From Cloacibacillus porcorum (GTDB lineage Bacteria; Synergistota; Synergistia; Synergistales; Synergistaceae): a stretch of DNA of 64,000 nucleotides. This document shows, one piece after another, positions 30,956 through 44,139 of the stretch (the stretch's first letter is position 1; the number at the start of each line of letters is the position of its first letter). The translations under genes and the position numbers were made by a program. The notes under the pieces are model-generated. The model searched no databases and was not told the DNA's origin. It worked only from the letters and a program-made list of their open reading frames with translations. The stretch is taken from positions 1,295,501 through 1,359,500 of the forward strand of contig NZ_CP016757.1 in NCBI RefSeq assembly GCF_001701045.1, given 5' to 3'.

Positions 30956-33922
<2,967 letters not shown>

Positions 33923-33979
33923 GTCACCAAAATATCAGGTCAATAAAATCGCCACGCGTCAGCGTTGTGTGTTTTGTAC

Positions 33980-34044
33980 GTCGCGAATTTAAGCTCGCGT
34001 GGATTGAAATCTATGTTTTTTATATGGAATATAGTGAGTTGGTA
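33980..34044 (+). ncRNA. Candidate CRISPR-repeat-derived regulatory RNA (orphan repeat plus 34-nt spacer-like guide)
   Basis: 33980-34010 reads as a canonical type I-C-like repeat: GTCGCGA, an 8-nt loop, TCGCG, then GTGGATTGAAAT. It differs from the array repeats in arm sequence. The next 34 nt (34011-34044), the size of array spacers, begin CTATGTTTTTTAT; GTCAC, the start of the T-variant array repeat, follows at 34045. The guide matches 34151-34163 at 12 of 13 positions, the only mismatch being position 6, just upstream of the cas5 promoter. This is the design of crRNA-like cas-regulating RNAs. No clear promoter is visible upstream, and expression is unproven. Confidence 0.5.
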
Positions 34045-34053
34045 TTGTCACAG

Positions 34054-34088
34054 GAATGGGTCTTGGAAGGGAAACCTTTCAAGGCCCA
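34054..34088 (+). other. 15-bp RNA hairpin with a GAAA tetraloop upstream of the cas promoter
   Basis: ATGGGTCTTGGAAGG (34054-34068) pairs with 34073-34088 through 15 base pairs (two G-U wobbles, one bulged A at 34081), closed by GAAA. It lies 10 nt after the spacer-like guide and may form the 3' end of that RNA. No T-run follows. Confidence 0.6.
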
Positions 34089-34110
34089 TAGCTTATGTAT
34101 AAAAGTGAGT

Positions 34111-34163
34111 TGTCCTATGCTTTATGTTTGGATATATTTATAGTATCGTCCTATGATTTTTAT
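34111..34163 (+). promoter_or_regulatory. Two predicted guide-matching sites upstream of the cas promoter
   Basis: Site 2 (34151-34163) matches guide positions 1-13 except 6. Site 1 (34114-34122) matches positions 1-9 except 6. Both have GTC directly 5' (34111-34113 and 34148-34150), one base from the TTC PAM usual for type I-C. A 34-nt protospacer at site 2 would end two bases before the -35 box at 34187. Confidence 0.5.
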
Positions 34164-34186
34164 TTGTAATGTATGAATTGTATCAA

Positions 34187-34215
34187 TTGACAATGTGTAT
34201 TGTGTATTATATACT
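34187..34215 (+). promoter_or_regulatory. Promoter of the cas operon
   Basis: Perfect -35 TTGACA (34187-34192), a 17-nt spacer and TATACT (34210-34215). The start site would fall near 34222, 91 nt before the cas5 ATG, at the edge of a 10-bp stem (CACAGAGGAA at 34223-34232 with TTCCTCTGTG at 34270-34279). Confidence 0.75.
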
Positions 34216-34312
34216 GAACTCACACAGAGGAAAGTCATTGTCTATATATCACTCCAGTTTTCCGCTTTCTTCCTCTGTGAATGATTCACTTAAAAGAAAG
34301 GAGGACTTCATC

Positions 34313-34987
34313 ATGTTAAAACAGTATATGGTTTCTTGTGAAATTGCCGGCCGCCATGCTCTTTTTTCCGATCCGTCTATGGGCGATAGTCCCGGGTCTT
34401 ATCCCGTACCTACGGCTTCTGCTGTATGCGGAATTTTTTCCGCGGTAAATTGGGGGCCTGCTGTGACGATTATACCGCAGAAAGTGGAAATATGTTCGCC
34501 AATCAGGTTTGAAAATTACATCACTAATTATGGCGGGCCGCTGCGGCATTCTGGCAGCATCAGCGGGGATAATAATTATCAGCTTCTGGCTTCCATACTG
34601 GTCGATGTATGTTATAAGCTTCACGCGTCAGTTCGGCCGCTCCGGCAGAACAGAGAGAAGATGACAGATGGTGCGCGGCGCTGGGACGCGAATACGACCT
34701 CTCCTGGACATGCTTATAAGGCGATTTTTGAGCGCCGCCTTAAGCGTGGCCAGTTTTTTCATACGCCATGTTTAGGATGGAAAGAATTCACACCTACATA
34801 TTTTGGCCCATTACGCGAGACGACCTCTCCATGCAAAGAAATCAACTTAGTGATCCCCAGCCTGTTAATGAGCGTTTTTCCGGACGGCTATGACTCAAAA
34901 CCGCGCTTTGCCTTTGCACAAAATGTAGAGGTACGCGAAGGCGTAATGTTCTATCCCCAAGAGGAGGCATCCTGCAATGCTGAATGA
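34313..34987 (+). CDS. cas5c: CRISPR-associated protein Cas5 (type I-C, crRNA-processing Cas5d)
   Basis: 224 residues from ATG 34313, preceded by AAGGAGG; an upstream in-frame extension to 34169 is rejected because it has no ribosome-binding site and would cross the -10 region. Cas5d landmarks: YPVPTASAVCGIFSAVNWGP, PIRFENYI, and the C-terminal RGQFFHTPCLGWKEF. In type I-C systems Cas5d cuts the repeat hairpin to make crRNA, replacing Cas6; no cas6 is present here, which agrees. cas8 begins 11 nt before its end. Confidence 0.9.
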   Translation: MLKQYMVSCEIAGRHALFSDPSMGDSPGSYPVPTASAVCGIFSAVNWGPAVTIIPQKVEICSPIRFENYITNYGGPLRHSGSISGDNNYQLLASILVDVCYKLHASVRPLRQNREKMTDGARRWDANTTSPGHAYKAIFERRLKRGQFFHTPCLGWKEFTPTYFGPLRETTSPCKEINLVIPSLLMSVFPDGYDSKPRFAFAQNVEVREGVMFYPQEEASCNAE

Positions 34988-37181
34988 AGTTATACCGGCG
35001 GCAAATGCCTCCTCTTTGAAAAGAATATTCGCCCAGGAGTGGGATAAGAATCTGAAACCTCTCCCTAAGGGAGATGTCTTTAAAGTGTGTGTTTCGGCTG
35101 TCGAGCCCTTTGTCGACGGTGTCAGCCTGATACCGCCGGAGCATGCGGCTGTATTGCGCAAGTACGAAGAATCAAACGGTTTTTCATTCCCTGGCTTTAA
35201 CTTTCCACCGTACCTGCATATGTCAAAAGTAGATTTTGAACAAGGTTACCTGGCGATTTATGACCGATCGGCTGCCGAAGCGGCGGGCGGGCTTGATGAC
35301 AAGAAACGAGCCCGGTTCATCAGTAATTCCTTGAAGAAGAGCTTTGACCGGGGAAATTTTGCGGATTACTTGCTGCGCGCAGCTCAAGAGGACGCCCCGG
35401 ATGCCGCCGTCAATCGCGCGAAGGCTCTTAATAAAATCGAGAGGTGTATCAAGAATATGGCCTCCAATTTAGGAGAGAAGATAAAAGCGGCCGCGCTTGG
35501 TAATGACAACCCAAATTACCGAACTCTCTGCGAACGGCTGGAGAAAATATCACCGGAACAATTTTTTGACGGCTGTTTTGAATATTTTTCTTCGCTCATC
35601 GATTCATATGAGTCTTGGGAGCGGTATTGCCGCTTCTTTGTGCAGTCGGGTGCCGGTGTTACGGTATTTCTTGATATCAAAGATTATGACGACAATTATA
35701 AATCTGTGGCGCATGGTGATACTGTAAAATGGATCAACAGTGCACTGCTCAGAGCTAACGAAACGCGAGGCGGCGGCGATGAGACTGACGGTGAGGATGC
35801 CTACGGCAACCCGCTCAGCGGCTGCGACGCGAAGATGCCAAGTGTTCGCGTCGGCCCCCTCGGCGACGTGATTCTCCGTTCGATGGTTAAGGAGGCGCCC
35901 TGCCAGTTTCGTTACGGTGTCGCTGATTATGAATCCTTCCCCGTAGGCGACGTAAGCCGCAGAAGTGCCAAGCTGGCGCTTGAGACGCTTGCGCAGGAGC
36001 AGTTCAGAGGTAAAACGTGGAAACTAATGGGAGAAAAGGAATTACTCTTCGCATACCCGGTAATGCTGACAGGTGATATCGAAAGTGGCTGCAGTGATGA
36101 TATGGAAGATATCTTTAACCTTGGAGATATTCCCATGGCCGGACTTCTTACAAATGGCGCAGAGGCGGAAGACAAAGCCGACTTTACAGCCCTTGCAGGT
36201 CAGGTTATCGCGGCGCTTTCCGGAATATCGAGGCGGCTTTCAACAATCGAAATAAAGATTTTCGCATTGAAAAAGATGGATAAAGCACGCACAAAGGTAT
36301 CGTATTATACGAATTTTACAGTGGATTATCTCTATCAATGCGCCCATGAATGGAGCGAAGGCTGCCGCAACCTGCCAGATAATCTTAGGCGGATCAAACG
36401 CTGGGGAGCTGCGAAGGGCGAGATCATGGAAACGGAAAGGCGCAGTATTTTTCCTAGAGAGCTCTATACTTTCGCGAATAAAGTCTGGCGGATGGATGGT
36501 AGTGGAAATAGTCTCTCAAAAAAGATAAAATCCATGGATGGTCTTGAACTGCTGTTGAAAGAAGATCGTGCTTTCGCTATGAATCTTCTCACGATCTTTA
36601 TTTCCAATTCCGCACCTCTGCTTGCCCTCTGCGGAGAGTGCAGCCGCAGAGGGAAGCAGGTCATAGGTGATAAAGAGGAAGATAAAATTGTAAATCCAGC
36701 CATCCTTGCCCTGCTTTTGTACAAGCTTGGCTGTAAAAAGGAGGATTATATGAATAGTCCAGTTTTCAAACTCGGAACGCTTCTTGCGCTTGCGGACAGC
36801 CTGCAGTATCACTACTGCAAGTATGTACGGACTTCGGAAGAGGACAGAAAAAAGAACATTGTCAACGCGCCGGTCCAGCTTGTGGGAAATTCGATGCTCT
36901 CTGCCGCCGAAACCAGAACACGGCAGACGATTGGGATCCTTGGGGCTAGAATTAGGCCCTACCTCACATGGGCTAGGACGGATATGGGAGAAGACATGGG
37001 ACTCAGCAGGTGGATGCTGAAGCAGTTCTCAGTTATTTCGTTCGCGCTGGCAGAATCGTCTCTGCCGGAATCTCTGGGGCCGATAGAAAAATCTGAACTT
37101 TATCTGGGATACATGGCTGGAGTTTCCGGCAAAACCACAGGAGAAAATGAAAATGACGAGGGAGGAAAGCAAAATGGCTAA
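34977..37181 (+). CDS. Cas8-type large subunit of the CRISPR effector (divergent, I-C-like)
   Basis: 734 residues, longer than usual Cas8c/Csd1 and without the expected CLVTGE-type motif. It is called from its place between cas5 and cas7 and segments such as DAYGNPLSG, KMPSVRVGPLGDVILRSM, PCQFRYG and ELLFAYP. GAGGAGG lies 9 nt before the ATG, within the cas5 3' end. Cas8 would read the PAM and hold the R-loop. The C-terminal ~143 residues begin at an internal ATG with its own strong ribosome-binding site (36750) and probably also form a separate Cas11. Base composition is less GC-rich than flanking housekeeping genes. Confidence 0.78.
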   Translation: MLNEVIPAANASSLKRIFAQEWDKNLKPLPKGDVFKVCVSAVEPFVDGVSLIPPEHAAVLRKYEESNGFSFPGFNFPPYLHMSKVDFEQGYLAIYDRSAAEAAGGLDDKKRARFISNSLKKSFDRGNFADYLLRAAQEDAPDAAVNRAKALNKIERCIKNMASNLGEKIKAAALGNDNPNYRTLCERLEKISPEQFFDGCFEYFSSLIDSYESWERYCRFFVQSGAGVTVFLDIKDYDDNYKSVAHGDTVKWINSALLRANETRGGGDETDGEDAYGNPLSGCDAKMPSVRVGPLGDVILRSMVKEAPCQFRYGVADYESFPVGDVSRRSAKLALETLAQEQFRGKTWKLMGEKELLFAYPVMLTGDIESGCSDDMEDIFNLGDIPMAGLLTNGAEAEDKADFTALAGQVIAALSGISRRLSTIEIKIFALKKMDKARTKVSYYTNFTVDYLYQCAHEWSEGCRNLPDNLRRIKRWGAAKGEIMETERRSIFPRELYTFANKVWRMDGSGNSLSKKIKSMDGLELLLKEDRAFAMNLLTIFISNSAPLLALCGECSRRGKQVIGDKEEDKIVNPAILALLLYKLGCKKEDYMNSPVFKLGTLLALADSLQYHYCKYVRTSEEDRKKNIVNAPVQLVGNSMLSAAETRTRQTIGILGARIRPYLTWARTDMGEDMGLSRWMLKQFSVISFALAESSLPESLGPIEKSELYLGYMAGVSGKTTGENENDEGGKQNG
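36750..37181 (+). CDS. Predicted internal start producing a Cas11-like small subunit from cas8
   Basis: AAAAAGGAGG ends 5 nt before an ATG at 36750 that is in frame with cas8 (codon 592). The 143-residue product starts MNSPVFKLGTLLALADSLQ and is largely helical in appearance. In type I-C systems a separate Cas11 small subunit is translated from inside the 3' part of cas8c, so position, frame and size all agree. The site is the strongest Shine-Dalgarno match I noticed inside the long cas8 frame. Confidence 0.7.
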   Translation: MNSPVFKLGTLLALADSLQYHYCKYVRTSEEDRKKNIVNAPVQLVGNSMLSAAETRTRQTIGILGARIRPYLTWARTDMGEDMGLSRWMLKQFSVISFALAESSLPESLGPIEKSELYLGYMAGVSGKTTGENENDEGGKQNG

Positions 37182-38022
37182 TGAATTTCTTAATAGAGGT
37201 ACCGGGCTGCTTGTTCTTGAAGTGATCAATTCGAATCCTAACGGAGACCCTGATTCGGACGGGGCTCCGCGTGTCAGATATGATGGCCGCGGAGAGATTT
37301 CGCCTGTATCTTTTAAGAGGAAACTGCGCGACCTCGTGGAAGACAAGGATGGTCCTGTTTGGCAGCATATCAGCGAAAATATGCATCTTAACAGTGAAAA
37401 CTTTATGATACTTGAATCACGCGGACGCGACCGTAAGCTGATAACCAAAGAGATAAAAGAGGGTACGTTCGTCGGGCGATACTGGGACGGGAGAATATTT
37501 GGCAATACATTCCTTGAAGACGCGATGGATAAAGCCAGCATAAAGACGGGAGTCGTCCAGTTCGGGATGGGAGTATCAATTTCTCCCGTATCCACCGAAG
37601 CCCAGACGAACACGAACAAAGCCGGGGTACAAGAAGGGAAAAATCAGGGAATGGCGCCGATGGCCTACAAGATAGTTACTCATGGTCTTTATGTGATGCC
37701 ATTTTTTATCAACCCGAATTATGCGCATAAGTCAGGCTGCACTAAGATGGATATCGAACTGATGAAGGCTCTTATCCCCTACGCATATACGCATAACCGT
37801 TCGGCGATCCGTCCGTTTGTCGAGATACGTCAGGCGTGGTTCTGTGAACATAGGAATCCGCTTGGCTCCTGCTCGGACTTTGATCTGATCGACGCTCTGA
37901 TGCCCAAGCGTCTGGGGGATATAGACAAGCCGTCAGACAGCCTGAAGGACTATGAACTTGTCACGTCATTGCCCGACGAACTTAAGGATAGGGTCTCATG
38001 TGTGGACCTGATGGCCCTGTAG
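37174..38022 (+). CDS. cas7c: CRISPR-associated protein Cas7 (Csd2/Csh2 family)
   Basis: 282 residues from ATG 37174, which follows AGGGAGG by 8 nt and overlaps the cas8 stop; the earlier in-frame ATG (37147) lacks such a site. N-terminal signature LLVLEVINSNPNGDPDSDG is the Cas7 RAMP start; TNTNKAGVQEGKNQG and AIRPFVEIRQAWFCEHRNP are further family features. Cas7 polymerises along the crRNA to form the Cascade backbone. cas3 starts 25 nt before its end. Confidence 0.92.
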   Translation: MANEFLNRGTGLLVLEVINSNPNGDPDSDGAPRVRYDGRGEISPVSFKRKLRDLVEDKDGPVWQHISENMHLNSENFMILESRGRDRKLITKEIKEGTFVGRYWDGRIFGNTFLEDAMDKASIKTGVVQFGMGVSISPVSTEAQTNTNKAGVQEGKNQGMAPMAYKIVTHGLYVMPFFINPNYAHKSGCTKMDIELMKALIPYAYTHNRSAIRPFVEIRQAWFCEHRNPLGSCSDFDLIDALMPKRLGDIDKPSDSLKDYELVTSLPDELKDRVSCVDLMAL

Positions 38023-40298
38023 AAAAATATCTCGCACACAGTGCGCGCCCTGAGCTTGGTATTCCCGCTCAGGGCTATTTTAGACATGCCGGCAATGTTG
38101 TGCGCTTCTGTGATTCGGAGCTGTCATCAATAACGGTAGATAAAAGAATCCAACCTTTATATGATTTCCTTAAACGCTGCCTTCTTATCGCCGCTTCGTT
38201 TCATGACCTTGGCAAGCTGGGCGACGAAAATCAGAGTGTGCTGCGCGGAGATAAAAAAGCTAGAAACCTGCCGATAAACCACTGCGACGCAGGTGTCGCC
38301 TATATGATGCGCAATAGGGCACTTTTGAGTGCTTTGCTGATTTATTCCCACCATATTGGACTACCAAATATTGCTGATGAAAAGATGAGAATAAATTCAC
38401 CCTGCGGCGATCTGCGTTTCCGCGACAATGATGAGACTGTTCAACGGGACAGCTCTCAGAATTTGGAGACTTATCTTGCCAGGCACTGTGAATCTTTTGG
38501 ATCGAAGCTGGCCGCGATAGAGAAAATAAGCTCCGGTGGGCAGCTTAAATATCCCGTAGGAGCAAGGGTATTGCTCTCGTGCCTTGCCGACGCGGATCAT
38601 ACGGATACTGCCATCCACTACCGCAATTTTCATGAAGAAGAGATGCCGCTCCTGCAAGCCGAAAAAAGGCTTGCCGCGCTTGACAACTATGTCGCTGGAC
38701 TTGCCAGCAGCGATAACTCTGTGAAAATGTCAAAACGCAACATCGCCAGGAGCGAAATGTATGAAAAATGCCGCTGCGGTTCCACAAAGAATTGGTTATA
38801 TTATTGCGACAGTCCTGTAGGAACAGGTAAAACAACAGCCATAATGGCGGCGCTGCTGAACGCGGCGCATGCCAAGAACCTGCGCCGGATATTCATTGTC
38901 CTTCCTTTCACTAACATCCTCAAACAATCTGTTGATGTTTACAGAAAGGCCCTGCGGCTTCCGGACGAAAGTGACAGCGATATGGAGCGCGTCGTTGCAG
39001 CGATTCATCATAAAGCTGAATACGAAGACGAAAACAGCAGGCAGCTTTCCGCACTTTGGCGTTCCCCGATAATCGTTACCACGGCGGTCCAATTTTTTGA
39101 GACAATGGCTGCGGCATCCCCTTCGGGGCTACGTAAACTTCATGCGCTGCCCAACAGCGCCGTTTTTATTGACGAGGCACACACCGCGCTTCCAACAAGC
39201 CTATGGCCGCTTGCTTGGCGGTGGATCAATGATTATGCTGAGATGTGGCGCTGCCATTTTATACTTGCGTCTGGCTCTCTGAAAAAATTCTGGGAACTAG
39301 AAGAATTTAAAATAAGGAACAAAGATGATAATAGTATCCCTTCTTTGCTGCCAAGAGAATTCAGCGATGCCCTCAATAAGATGGAGACGCAACGTGTACC
39401 TATAAAGCGTAAGCCGGAAAAAATGGACGAGACGAAGCTATGCGAGTGGCTGCTTACACTGAAGGGGCCACGCCTTGTAGTCCTGAATACCGTTCAGTCC
39501 GCCGCGGTTATTGCCAATACTTTGGCTGATATATGCGGAAGAGAGCATGTTGAACACATCTCGACAGCCATTGCCCCTAAAGACAGGGAATTGATAGTAG
39601 AAAATATAAAAAGACGTCTGAGTGATAAAAAAGATGAGGACTGGACTCTCGTTGCCACATCCTGTGTGGAGGCTGGTGTGGATTTCTCATTTCGGAACGG
39701 TGTGCGGGAGGCAGCAGGACTTGTGAATCTGCTCCAACTTGCAGGTAGAATTAGACGCAACGAAGAGGATTGCTATAACGACTCTGTTGTTTGGAGTATA
39801 GAGCTTGATTTTAGCGGGATGCTTAAAAGACACCCGTCGTTTGAGATATCCTCAAAGGTTTTGCTTGATCTATTTGCAGAAAATCCTGCTTTGATCAATG
39901 ATGGAACAGACATCTCCGACCTCTGTACGAGAGCGCTCAGGCGTGAACTCAACGAATGCGGAATGACGGAAGGTTCTAGTATCATGGAAGATGAAATGGC
40001 TTGCTCATATGCGTCAGTGGAAAAAAAATTCAAGGTGATCGATTCCCAAACTGTTACTGTTATTATAGATACGTGCATAAAAGAACGCTTAGAGTCTTAT
40101 GAAACGATATCATGGCGCGAGCTTCAGGATCACAGCGTACAAATATATGTCCACACTGCACGAAACTTAAAGGTAGAACCAGTTCGCGGCCATCCTGATA
40201 TATATTTCTGGCCCTATAGCTATAATAAGTTTATTGGGTATATGGCCGGAGTATTGGAGAACTATGAGTTAAACAGCCGTGGCTTGGGCTTCCTATAG
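37998..40298 (+). CDS. cas3: CRISPR-associated nuclease/helicase Cas3
   Basis: 766 residues. N-terminal HD nuclease: YFRHAGNVVRF, SFHDLGKLGD (H69-D70), LIYSHHIGLP. Then a superfamily 2 helicase: Walker A SPVGTGKTTAIM (about 270-280), VFIDEAHTALP (DEAH, about 390), SGSL, SCVEAGVDFSF, and motif VI LLQLAGRIRRNEED. Cas3 is recruited to the R-loop and degrades target DNA. Type I-C operons usually start with cas3; here it sits after cas7, as in I-B, so its order is unusual. Confidence 0.94.
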   Translation: MCGPDGPVEKYLAHSARPELGIPAQGYFRHAGNVVRFCDSELSSITVDKRIQPLYDFLKRCLLIAASFHDLGKLGDENQSVLRGDKKARNLPINHCDAGVAYMMRNRALLSALLIYSHHIGLPNIADEKMRINSPCGDLRFRDNDETVQRDSSQNLETYLARHCESFGSKLAAIEKISSGGQLKYPVGARVLLSCLADADHTDTAIHYRNFHEEEMPLLQAEKRLAALDNYVAGLASSDNSVKMSKRNIARSEMYEKCRCGSTKNWLYYCDSPVGTGKTTAIMAALLNAAHAKNLRRIFIVLPFTNILKQSVDVYRKALRLPDESDSDMERVVAAIHHKAEYEDENSRQLSALWRSPIIVTTAVQFFETMAAASPSGLRKLHALPNSAVFIDEAHTALPTSLWPLAWRWINDYAEMWRCHFILASGSLKKFWELEEFKIRNKDDNSIPSLLPREFSDALNKMETQRVPIKRKPEKMDETKLCEWLLTLKGPRLVVLNTVQSAAVIANTLADICGREHVEHISTAIAPKDRELIVENIKRRLSDKKDEDWTLVATSCVEAGVDFSFRNGVREAAGLVNLLQLAGRIRRNEEDCYNDSVVWSIELDFSGMLKRHPSFEISSKVLLDLFAENPALINDGTDISDLCTRALRRELNECGMTEGSSIMEDEMACSYASVEKKFKVIDSQTVTVIIDTCIKERLESYETISWRELQDHSVQIYVHTARNLKVEPVRGHPDIYFWPYSYNKFIGYMAGVLENYELNSRGLGFL

Positions 40299-40314
40299 GA
40301 AGGGATGATTACCG

Positions 40315-40989
40315 TTGTTCTCAGAAGATGAACTGCTCCCCATATCGCTGCTTCAGCATTATGTCTTTTGCCCGCGCCGGGCGGCGCTTATCGGTATAGA
40401 ACAGTATTGGAACGAAAACACTGCCACGATGGATGGGAAAATAATGCACGAGAGGGCCCATGATGATATCTTCGAAAGCAGGGGCGATATTAGGATGAGA
40501 AACGCTTTACATATACATTCGTTTGAATTGGGACTCACCGGGGTGGCAGATGTGCTCGAGTTTCATAGAACAGGAGGGACTGGCATATCTATTCCAGGGG
40601 CGGAAGGAAACTGGACTCCATTTCCAGTTGAATATAAACGCGGAACGACGCATGAGGCGCTGCCATATCATATACAGCTGTGTGCCCAGGCATTATGTAT
40701 AGAGGAGATGCTGCACACTACGATTGAACGCGGCGCTATTTTCTGGGGAGAGAGCCGCAGACGTCAGGATGTGGAATTTGATTTTGACCTCAGGGCCAAG
40801 ACGGTAGAAACAATCTCGATAGTCAGAAAATTTATTGAAGCCGGGAAGACGCCGGCGCCTAAGTATGAAAAAAAATGCAAAGGCTGCTCTTTATTTGATT
40901 TGTGTATGCCGAAAGAGATGGAAAAAAGGAGTGTCAAAAGATATCTTGCAAGTTTTTTTAGCGATACTGAAAGCGAGGAACTGCTATGA
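40315..40989 (+). CDS. cas4: CRISPR-associated exonuclease Cas4
   Basis: 224 residues from TTG 40315 with AGGAAGGG about 9 nt upstream. RecB-like nuclease with the N-terminal Cys (LLQHYVFCPRRAALI), GVADVLEF, the catalytic FPVEYKRG, and C-terminal Cys cluster KCKGCSLFDLCMP, giving the four ligands of a 4Fe-4S cluster. Cas4 trims prespacers and selects PAM-bearing ends with Cas1-Cas2. It overlaps cas1 by ATGA. Confidence 0.95.
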   Translation: MFSEDELLPISLLQHYVFCPRRAALIGIEQYWNENTATMDGKIMHERAHDDIFESRGDIRMRNALHIHSFELGLTGVADVLEFHRTGGTGISIPGAEGNWTPFPVEYKRGTTHEALPYHIQLCAQALCIEEMLHTTIERGAIFWGESRRRQDVEFDFDLRAKTVETISIVRKFIEAGKTPAPKYEKKCKGCSLFDLCMPKEMEKRSVKRYLASFFSDTESEELL

Positions 40990-42017
40990 AAAAACTGCAA
41001 AATAGCCTGTATATCCTGACTCAGGGGGCGTATCTTGCTAAAGAGGGGGAAACAATCGCCGTCTACGTGGACAGGGAACTGAAACAGCGTTTCCCTCTCC
41101 ATAATCAGTCCAATATTTTATGCTTTGGCAATGTTTTGTGCACGCCGGCTTTAATGGGCATGTGCGGTGAAAATGGAGTAGGAATGTCGTTTTTTACCGA
41201 AAACGGCAGGTTTCTTGCGCGTGTAAATGGGCCTGTATCCGGCAATGTTTTACTACGCCGCAAACAATATAGGGCGGCGGATGATGTAAATATACGTGCG
41301 GAGTTGGCTCGGTGGATGGTAGTTGCAAAGATTGCAAATAGTAGAAAGAATTTATTAAGAGCAGTTCGCGAATACCCCGGAAAGGACGGCGCAGCCCGGC
41401 TCAAAGATGCTTCAGATTATCTTGCTGCTACGCTGAAAAGCTTGGAGTTGTTCAAACCACTGGAGGTTGTCCGTGGCATCGAGGGGGATGCCGCTAGAGT
41501 TTATTTTTCTGTGTTTGACGAATTGATCGTTGCGCAAAAGGATAAATTTTTCTTTCACGGCAGAAATCGGCGGCCGCCTATGGATAACGTAAATGCAATG
41601 CTCTCCTTTGTCTATACTCTTATTGCGCATGACGTTTCTTCTGCGCTTGAAGGTGTCGGGCTCGATCCCGCCGTTGGCTTTTTACATGCTGACAGACCGG
41701 GGCGTCCCAGTCTGGCCCTTGATTTGATGGAGGAATTTCGTTCTATGGTTGGAGATCGATTAGTGCTCACTCTGATAAATAGGAAACAGGTACGAAATGA
41801 CGGGTTCCAAAAAACAGAAACAGGTGGCGTCATAATGAATGATAAAACCAGAAAGGAGATTATAAAAAATTACCAGGAGAGAAAGAGAGACGAAATAATG
41901 CATCCATTCATCAATGAAAAAATCTCGCTGGGGCTGCTCCCGCATGTTCAGGCTATGCTCCTGTCCAGTTGTCTTCGTGGGGATATCGATGGTTATACCC
42001 CATTTTATTGGAAATGA
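40986..42017 (+). CDS. cas1: CRISPR-associated integrase Cas1
   Basis: 343 residues, subtype I-C size. Characteristic segments: NILCFGNVLCTPALMGMCGENGVGMSFFTENGRFLARV in the N-terminal domain, NVNAMLSFVYTLI, and LDPAVGFLHADRPGRPSLALDLMEEFR holding the catalytic His/Asp of the metal site. It integrates prespacers at the leader-proximal repeat. Stop-start overlap with cas4 and 18-nt spacing to cas2 indicate one operon. Confidence 0.97.
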   Translation: MKKLQNSLYILTQGAYLAKEGETIAVYVDRELKQRFPLHNQSNILCFGNVLCTPALMGMCGENGVGMSFFTENGRFLARVNGPVSGNVLLRRKQYRAADDVNIRAELARWMVVAKIANSRKNLLRAVREYPGKDGAARLKDASDYLAATLKSLELFKPLEVVRGIEGDAARVYFSVFDELIVAQKDKFFFHGRNRRPPMDNVNAMLSFVYTLIAHDVSSALEGVGLDPAVGFLHADRPGRPSLALDLMEEFRSMVGDRLVLTLINRKQVRNDGFQKTETGGVIMNDKTRKEIIKNYQERKRDEIMHPFINEKISLGLLPHVQAMLLSSCLRGDIDGYTPFYWK

Positions 42018-42035
42018 CAGGAACGAGGTATTGCC

Positions 42036-42326
42036 ATGCTTCTTCTAATAACTTATGATGTAAATACTAGTACGCCTGAAGGCAGGAGACGCTTGCGTAG
42101 GGTTGCAAGAATCTGCGAAAACTATGGGCAAAGGGTACAAAATTCTGTTTTTGAGTGTTTAGTTGATCAGGCTCAGAGGTTGGAGTTATGCCATGAACTG
42201 GAAAAAGTAATAGATATAAAAAAAGACAGCCTGCGGTACTATCAACTTGGAAATCATTGGAAAAACAGAGTTGAACATGTTGGCACAAAGGATACCTTTG
42301 ATCCGGAAGGCGTCCTCATTTTATAG
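42036..42326 (+). CDS. cas2: CRISPR-associated protein Cas2
   Basis: 96 residues, ferredoxin-like fold: MLLLITYDVNTSTPEGRRRLRRVARICENYG and VQNSVFECLVDQAQ are the family signature. It bridges the two Cas1 dimers in the adaptation complex. It is the last cas gene; the leader and CRISPR array follow directly on the same strand. Confidence 0.97.
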   Translation: MLLLITYDVNTSTPEGRRRLRRVARICENYGQRVQNSVFECLVDQAQRLELCHELEKVIDIKKDSLRYYQLGNHWKNRVEHVGTKDTFDPEGVLIL

Positions 42327-42492
42327 CGCGAACCTCAAGTGGACATGAATTTACCGGGAGGTTCGCGTTGTTGATTTTACAACGGAATAGCTAGTTTTTT
42401 AGATAAAATCCATTAGCTTTTAGTAGAATTTCGCCAAGTCCGCGTTTAGCATCGAGTAAAGTATTGATATAAGTATATAGATTCTATATACA
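42327..42492 (+). promoter_or_regulatory. CRISPR leader
   Basis: AT-rich stretch between cas2 and the first repeat. It starts with a perfect 9-bp stem CGCGAACCT (42327-42335)/AGGTTCGCG (42359-42367) separated by 23 nt, an element placed just after cas2, and ends in a palindrome GTATATAG-ATT-CTATATAC (42473-42491) abutting repeat 1. Repeats decay at the far end of the array, confirming this side as leader. Confidence 0.85.
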
Positions 42493-44139
42493 CCACGAGC
42501 TTCGCGCTTCGTGTGGATTAAAATGTCGAGGACGGCATCCAGCGGCAGCTCGACAAGGCCACGAGCTTCGCGCTTCGTGTGGATTAAAATGTGCCGTTAC
42601 CGCCGTACTTGGTGCCTATTACTGCGCCACGAGCTTCGCGCTTCGTGTGGATTAAAATGCTTACATAAAGAGCGTAGCCAACATCGACGTCTCCGCCACG
42701 AGCTTCGCGCTTCGTGTGGATTAAAATTTTATACTTTGGCCACCGTTCGGACTCGCGTAGGCCACGAGCTTCGCGCTTCGTGTGGATTAAAATGCTTACA
42801 TAAAGAGCGTAGCCAACATCGACGTCTCCGCCACGAGCTTCGCGCTTCGTGTGGATTAAAATAATGATGATGTAATTGTAATGCCCTGTTTGTTCCGCCA
42901 CGAGCTTCGCGCTTCGTGTGGATTAAAATGATCTTGACCCGCAGGGCAACCTCACGGCGGCAACGCCACGAGCTTCGCGCTTCGTGTGGATTAAAATTTT
43001 ATACTTTGGCCACCGTTCGGACTCGCGTAGGCCACGAGCTTCGCGCTTCGTGTGGATTAAAATAGCTTTATACGTGGATGAACTTAATCGCTGCTCGAAG
43101 CCACGAGCTTCGCGCTACGTGTGGATTAAAATGACGATGATGTTATCTTTGTCGTAGGTGACGACTCGCCACGAGCTTCGCGCTTCGTGTGGATTAAAAT
43201 TTGGCTAAAACAGGCGGGCACTGTGCGTATTGCGCCACGAGCTTCGCGCTTCGTGTGGATTAAAATGCCTCGTCCCATTCGCTTTGCATGTCGGTCGGCG
43301 TCACGAGCTTCGCGCTTCGTGTGGATTAAAATCTGTAATGGGCAAGCAAGGCGCGGAATGGAAGCTGGTCACGAGCTTCGCGCTTCGTGTGGATTAAAAT
43401 TCACGTGCCAGGTGGCCCGCCTCACGTGCCTCGTGTCACGAGCTTCGCGCTTCGTGTGGATTAAAATCGCATTGCGGAAGCCACGACGCGCTTGCCGAGT
43501 ACGTCACGAGCTTCGCGCTTCGTGTGGATTAAAATCCCTGCACATCGAATGCGGTACCAGGTGCGATAAACGTCACGAGCTTCGCGCTTCGTGTGGATTA
43601 AAATTCTTTGCCGAAGTCTCCTTTGTGTTCGCGCAGAGTCACGAGCTTCGCGCTTCGTGTGGATTAAAATACATATCCCTATGGCGACGTGATCCATCTG
43701 CGGCGGCCACGAGCTTCGCGCTTCGTGTGGATTAAAATATAGCCGCCGCCTTTTACTGCCGCCGCGCCAAACGCCACGAGCTTCGCGCTTCGTGTGGATT
43801 AAAATGAAAGATGACCCTGCATCTTTAAACGGCAGCGCCCGCCACGAGCTTCGCGCTTCGTGTGGATTAAAATTTGATACGCTGCGGCTCGGATTATATC
43901 CCTTCGGTCACGAGCTTCGCGCTTCGTGTGGATTAAAATGTTTATGGACGGATTTGCGGAAGATGGCGTGACGGTCACGAGCTTCACGCTTCGTGTGGAT
44001 TAAAATCGCAATGCCTTATCAAGCCCCTGAACCTGCGCATGTCACGAGCTTCACGCTTCGTGTGGATTAAAATTCGACGATAACGCCCTTGTTGTTTACG
44101 CGGCAGGCCACGAGCTTCGCGCTTTGTGTGGATTAAAAT
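42493..44139 (+). CRISPR. CRISPR array: 25 repeats, 24 spacers
   Basis: The repeat has a 32-nt core CACGAGC...GCTTCGTG stem followed by GTGGATTAAAAT, preceded by G (33-nt unit) at all but the first copy. The second base is C in repeats 1-12, 19-21 and 25 and T in 13-18 and 22-24. Repeat 10 has one change, 23 and 24 share a G-to-A change and 25 has a C-to-T change. Spacers are 33-36 nt. Spacer 3 (42659-42694) equals spacer 5 (42794-42829), and spacer 4 (42728-42760) equals spacer 8 (42998-43030). The repeat end resembles type I-C (GTGGATTGAAAY) with one substitution. Confidence 0.98.

Follow-up and report, generated by a model that had tools for sequence, protein, structure and literature searches.

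The window, a stretch of 64,000 nucleotides on the 3.59 Mb chromosome of Cloacibacillus porcorum (genome G000), carries a CRISPR-Cas locus whose genes are ordered cas5-cas8c-cas7-cas3-cas4-cas1-cas2 (34313-42326) and are followed by an array of 25 repeats (Table 1). The components that define type I-C, i.e., Cas8c, Cas5c, Cas7 and a Cas1 of the I-C type, were all present, and none of the operon's large ORFs encodes Cas6. The Cas8c protein is divergent, as Pfam and NCBIfam searches with it returned zero matches. Since Cas8 was assigned by the PADLOC Cas8c model alone and Cas1 exceeded the I-C cut-off, we regard the system as I-C but divergent, its cas3 lying within the operon, between cas7 and cas4, and not as the first gene. 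A second CRISPR array, of another type, was seen in the same genome (L056 13842-15980; G000:C1:about 465.8-468.0 kb); its repeat contains GTCACGCCCTCACGGGCGTGCTAGTTGAA and a weak second Cas5 match lies near it.

The operon is preceded by a housekeeping-type gene, a Sua5/YrdC-like ORF (32888-33922; named by eye), and the chromosomal interval between both contains, in the direction of cas5, an orphan repeat, a guide, a 15-bp hairpin, two target sites and a near-perfect promoter. The initial annotation had recognised the repeat as type I-C-like and had let the guide begin directly after it, at 34011, and the sequence bears out both statements. The repeat is single in the window (search at up to 3 mismatches) and, for the pattern searched, has no further copy in the whole genome apart from those of the array. 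The element occupies the same place in G001, a genome of the same genus, where the stem of the 15-bp hairpin is kept through compensating changes (judged by eye); this hairpin is the probable 3' end of the predicted RNA, without a U-tract. A terminator-like hairpin of the upstream gene stands just before the orphan repeat, and a comparable one is kept in position in G001. No good promoter was visible 5' of the orphan repeat in the window or elsewhere in its genus, so that, with the terminator-like hairpin only 8 nt upstream, the RNA may depend on read-through. An Rfam search gave no gathering-level match, and a weak rliA hit (E 0.59) was dismissed as chance.

Table 1 Features of the cas locus and of the element preceding it (positions in the window)
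Feature	Position	Strand	Basis or remarks
Terminator-like hairpin of upstream gene	33953..33971	+	8 nt 5' of orphan repeat
Orphan degenerate I-C-like repeat GTCGCGAATTTAAGCTCGCGTGGATTGAAAT	33980..34010	+	Stem CGCGA/TCGCG, 3' tag GTGGATTGAAAT
Guide of predicted CreR-like RNA	34011..34044	+	Functional seed about 34011-34026; identity with G001, site matches
15-bp RNA hairpin 3' of guide	34056..34089	+	Fold prediction
Target site 1	34112..34148	+	PAM GTC 34112-34114, protospacer 34115-34148; also in G001
Target site 2	34148..34184	+	PAM GTC 34148-34150, protospacer 34151-34184
cas operon promoter TTGACA-17-TATACT	34187..34215	+	
cas5c, first gene of operon	34313..34987	+	Profile search, PADLOC
cas8c variant	34977..37181	+	PADLOC Cas8c, E=1.1e-173
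cas7	37147..38022	+	Profile searches, PADLOC
cas3 (HD and helicase)	37998..40298	+	Profile searches, PADLOC
cas4	40315..40989	+	Profile search
cas1 (I-C type)	40986..42017	+	TIGR03640, 495.6 bits, exceeds cut-off
cas2	42036..42326	+	Profile search
CRISPR array	42492..44139	+	25 repeats GTCACGAGCTTCGCGCTTCGTGTGGATTAAAAT; spacers 33-36 nt

The guide agrees with site 2 at 19 of its first 23 positions, the mismatches being at 6, 14, 17 and 21; the match claimed earlier, 34151-34163 with a mismatch at position 6, was correct but understated. Site 1 agrees at 13 of the first 18 positions, and here the earlier match was real but placed one base off, its protospacer running from 34115 and not from 34114. 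The GTC flank 5' of both sites, the end of the site 2 protospacer (34184) two bases before the -35, and the perfect -35 TTGACA at 34187 were found as described, the latter with a 17-nt spacer and TATACT. When the 268-nt downstream region was shuffled 2,000 times by dinucleotides, the best guide site had a P of about 0.0005, and a second score matching that of site 1 never appeared. A genome-wide search for GTCCTATGNTTTTTNT, one mismatch at most being allowed, recovered both sites and one other with a seed mismatch, no more. The two sites are spaced about 36-37 bp, roughly the length of PAM plus protospacer. The cas5 leader contains an inverted repeat (34223-34234 and 34265-34279) that folds no better than shuffles, and the leaders of G001 and of G021, a genome of another genus, present comparable inverted repeats of different sequence (by eye).

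Alignment of related genomes had been suggested as a check for covariation of guide and target, with relatives that keep the repeat and lose the seed match as the refuting case; the opposite was observed in both genomes compared. In G001 the repeat, the guide and the target were all kept: guide positions 1-27 were identical (27/27), as were the PAM and positions 1-16 of site 2 (19/19), and the repeat was identical at 27 of 31 positions, with the changes in the loop and the stem kept or extended. Between G000 and G001, conservation was highest in guide and target, while the neighbouring blocks reached 60-82% identity (upstream stretch, gap, distal site and leader 60-70%; promoter and hairpin about 82%). 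G021, whose Cas5 is 70% identical, presented a new pair: a repeat of the same type is followed there by a wholly different guide, ATATAATGTTGAAG, whose first 14 bases match 14/14 at a different site preceded by GTC, and the 34-nt span of this site overlaps the TTGACG -35 of the cas promoter. A further candidate target in G021, lying on the other strand, was unconvincing (P 0.01-0.06).

The protospacers of the arrays of G000, G001 and G021 provided a view of the PAM. For spacers of the G001 array, matches lie in a prophage-like stretch of G000 and of G001; one spacer of G000 has a match in a G021 contig, and one of G021 has a match in another G021 contig; no protospacers of these three arrays were found in phage records. 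GTC stood directly 5' of 8 of the 11 protospacer matches of at least 31/34. The initial annotation had been right about the GTC flanks and had called them near the I-C PAM TTC, which needs correction: judging from the array protospacers in the relatives, GTC is itself the PAM of the lineage, and both target sites thus bear the lineage's own PAM. The stretch G000:C1:2320888-2334409, outside the window, is matched by at least six G001 spacers, several of them with GTC, and is probably a prophage common to the genus. Three G001 spacers target their own genome, 16 (34/34, GTC), 24 (33/34, GTC) and 18 (34/34, flank CTT), all within the prophage-like stretch of G001 (L153, L155 and L158; G001:C1:2280400-2282866), and spacer 31 of G021 has a match with GTC in the G021 genome itself (L169, G021:C54:5557). 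Such self-targeting points to an anti-CRISPR in those elements or to a silenced system.

More distant relatives were collected by scanning GTDB genomes with an alignment of Cas5, used because the Cas8 alignment was too divergent, and this yielded 80 loci from many phyla. An orphan repeat was accepted when TGGATTGAAAY occurred near cas5, on either strand, with at most two mismatches in 12. Most of the 80 Cas5 relatives had no recognisable orphan repeat; it was found at L058, L060, L072, L078, L079, L085, L086, L087, L091, L092, L093, L105, L106, L121, L129 and L130. At all of these except L060 the guide matched the upstream region of its own locus far better than shuffles, random starts and swapped guides did, and guides swapped between loci never equalled the own score, again except for L060. 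L060 and L103 have an orphan repeat for which a convincing guide match was not found. The guides are unrelated between loci, each matching its own cas promoter region, and the finding of different guides in unrelated bacteria, each fitted to its own promoter, looks like a real self-regulating switch. By the same test, none of 164 array spacers reached a score of 10 against the promoter.

The element of a typical relative consists of a promoter, a single degenerate repeat, a guide and a strong hairpin that begins about 15-48 nt into the guide. A promoter matching at 10-11 of 12 positions precedes the repeat at L078, L079, L086, L093, L106 and L121, and terminator-like hairpins stronger than that of the window stand after the guide in relatives. 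Among relatives whose promoter was recognised, most have a protospacer that overlaps with this promoter or lies next to it. The triplet 5' of the site was TTC in 8, GTC in 5, TTT in 4 and GTT in 2 of 19 cases; an alternative register at L087 gives TTC. In L121 and L129, of Thiobacillus type, the predicted target lies about 350-390 nt from cas5 and close to the promoter of the element itself, which means that this RNA may also control itself. No Cas5 relatives were found in viral contigs or plasmids, L152, with Cas5 in a phage-labelled contig, showed no orphan repeat match, and a larger sample of a clostridial class gave no clearly new locus.

For 15 independent pairs, among which L078, L092, L121 and L129 were included by score, the mismatches at guide positions 1 to 18 numbered 0, 0, 0, 0, 0, 11, 0, 0, 3, 0, 0, 12, 0, 4, 4, 5, 9 and 9. 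Pairing ends near position 16, and beyond position 18 matching is random. Within positions 1-13, 23 of the 26 mismatches fall at positions 6 and 12 (Fisher P about 1e-20 against the other positions up to 13). All positions were scored alike; the positions with zero mismatches are partly selected, because the sites were chosen for matching, but the contrast of 6 and 12 is not, because the same sites win without exempting any position. Three loci of other I-C systems fetched afterwards (L141, L147 and L151) all mismatch at 6 and 12. The initial idea that every sixth base need not pair is reflected in the natural pairs; flipping out of every sixth position is established for I-E Cascade (PMC5904413).

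We conclude that the element very probably encodes a CreR-type RNA that directs the I-C Cascade to repress its own cas operon, with the RNA, the binding and the repression inferred. Self-repression of the CreR/CreA kind had been proposed from the window alone, and the covariation in relatives and the mismatches at 6 and 12 now support it, still without direct evidence of RNA or repression. It is improbable that the guide is instead a CreTA-type antitoxin repressing a small toxin gene beside the cas operon, with cas5 a mere neighbour: the anatomy, an ectopic repeat with a partial promoter match, is as in CreA (PMC9458426) and a 91-nt leader separates promoter and cas5, but the promoter that is targeted runs directly into cas5, inspection by eye revealed no additional small gene in between that has a start and a terminator of its own, and the targets of relatives also abut or overlap the promoter before cas5. 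We give still less credit to the idea that the repeat is a remnant, left over from the decay of an old array or leader end, and that the guide match is coincidence or local duplication. Degenerate repeats are common near arrays, the guide and both of its sites look alike, and the region is rich in AT; against this, guide and target are the blocks best conserved within the genus, mismatches gather at 6 and 12, nearly every site is anchored by a PAM-like triplet, array spacers lack such a promoter match, and the match persists across genera despite differing guides, a covariation that largely refutes the remnant. That a protein regulator uses the three CTATG elements as operators, with the repeat merely incidental, is hardly credible. 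Two similar tandem sites 36-37 bp apart upstream of a promoter may appear operator-like, but the elements are wholly different from lineage to lineage and still always begin right behind a CRISPR repeat at one end and right behind a PAM-like triplet at the other, and the unpaired positions are six bases apart.

In the CreR-type reading, the orphan repeat, guide and hairpin would encode a crRNA-like regulatory RNA, whose transcription and processing are inferred. Cas5c would cleave this RNA within the repeat, Cas7 and Cas8c would assemble on it, and the complex would recognise GTC together with a seed match of 13-16 nt, at one or two sites immediately 5' of the cas5 promoter; tandem sites could seat two complexes side by side, which is likewise an inference. 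As pairing ends around position 16-23, binding should not provoke cleavage by Cas3, and once bound the complex should impede RNA polymerase at the adjacent promoter. Against this, the target in the window ends upstream of the -35 without overlap. In E. coli I-E, PAM-distal mismatches are reported to weaken promoter occlusion strongly (PMC5904413), and for the I-B CreA of H. hispanica an 11-bp seed suffices (PMC10989794). The outcome would be a negative feedback in which free effector represses, and repression is lifted when ordinary crRNAs are plentiful or the effector is inhibited; effector binding, repression and this physiological trigger are all inferred.

The primary report on CreR is that of Liu et al. 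2023 in Cell Host Microbe, cited in PMC12948488 and PMC13131331. It lay outside the coverage of the literature searched, in which no publication on an I-C CreR was found, and our claim to novelty is limited to that extent. CreR, the cas-regulating RNA, has been reported for types I-B, I-E and V-A (PMC13131331, PMC12948488, PMC12737573). The present case resembles it in the ectopic repeat near the cas operon, the limited guide match to the cognate cas promoter and the predicted self-repression by the effector, and differs in belonging to type I-C and not to I-B, I-E or V-A (PMC13131331), and in having one repeat plus a hairpin where CreR has a mini-CRISPR with a second repeat. The two tandem target sites in the genus of the window are another difference, and RNA and repression are here inferred. 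Those features of a CreR that can be read from sequence, i.e., a degenerate cognate repeat by the cas operon, a PAM-proximal promoter match, a functional PAM and a kept coupling of guide and target, are fulfilled. CreA of CreTA (Li et al. 2021; PMC9458426) is similar in its one or two degenerate, system-specific repeats and its seed-limited promoter match (11 bp in H. hispanica; PMC10989794), but the window guide targets the cas promoter and no toxin gene was found by eye. RNA anti-CRISPRs (Racrs; PMC10651486) share the solitary CRISPR-like repeat outside an array, but are virus-encoded, whereas the window repeat is chromosomal, at the host's cas operon, and its guide matches that operon.

We think it likely that I-C systems of many phyla (Synergistota, Bacillota, Spirochaetota, Chloroflexota, Desulfobacterota, SAR324 and Pseudomonadota) share an undescribed family of one-repeat autorepressor cassettes, consisting in most relatives of a promoter, a single degenerate repeat, a 16-nt guide and a hairpin, in which positions 6 and 12 are unconstrained in vivo and the others up to 13 almost invariant. 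If this is true, type I-C and many phyla join the known range of RNA-guided autorepression of CRISPR-Cas, in a simpler form with one repeat, one guide and one hairpin. The natural guide-target pairs would then amount to an evolutionary experiment on which positions of the R-loop matter, one in which 6 and 12 give a clear read-out, and it would become possible to test directly whether the expression of I-C cas genes senses the supply of crRNA and the presence of anti-CRISPRs.
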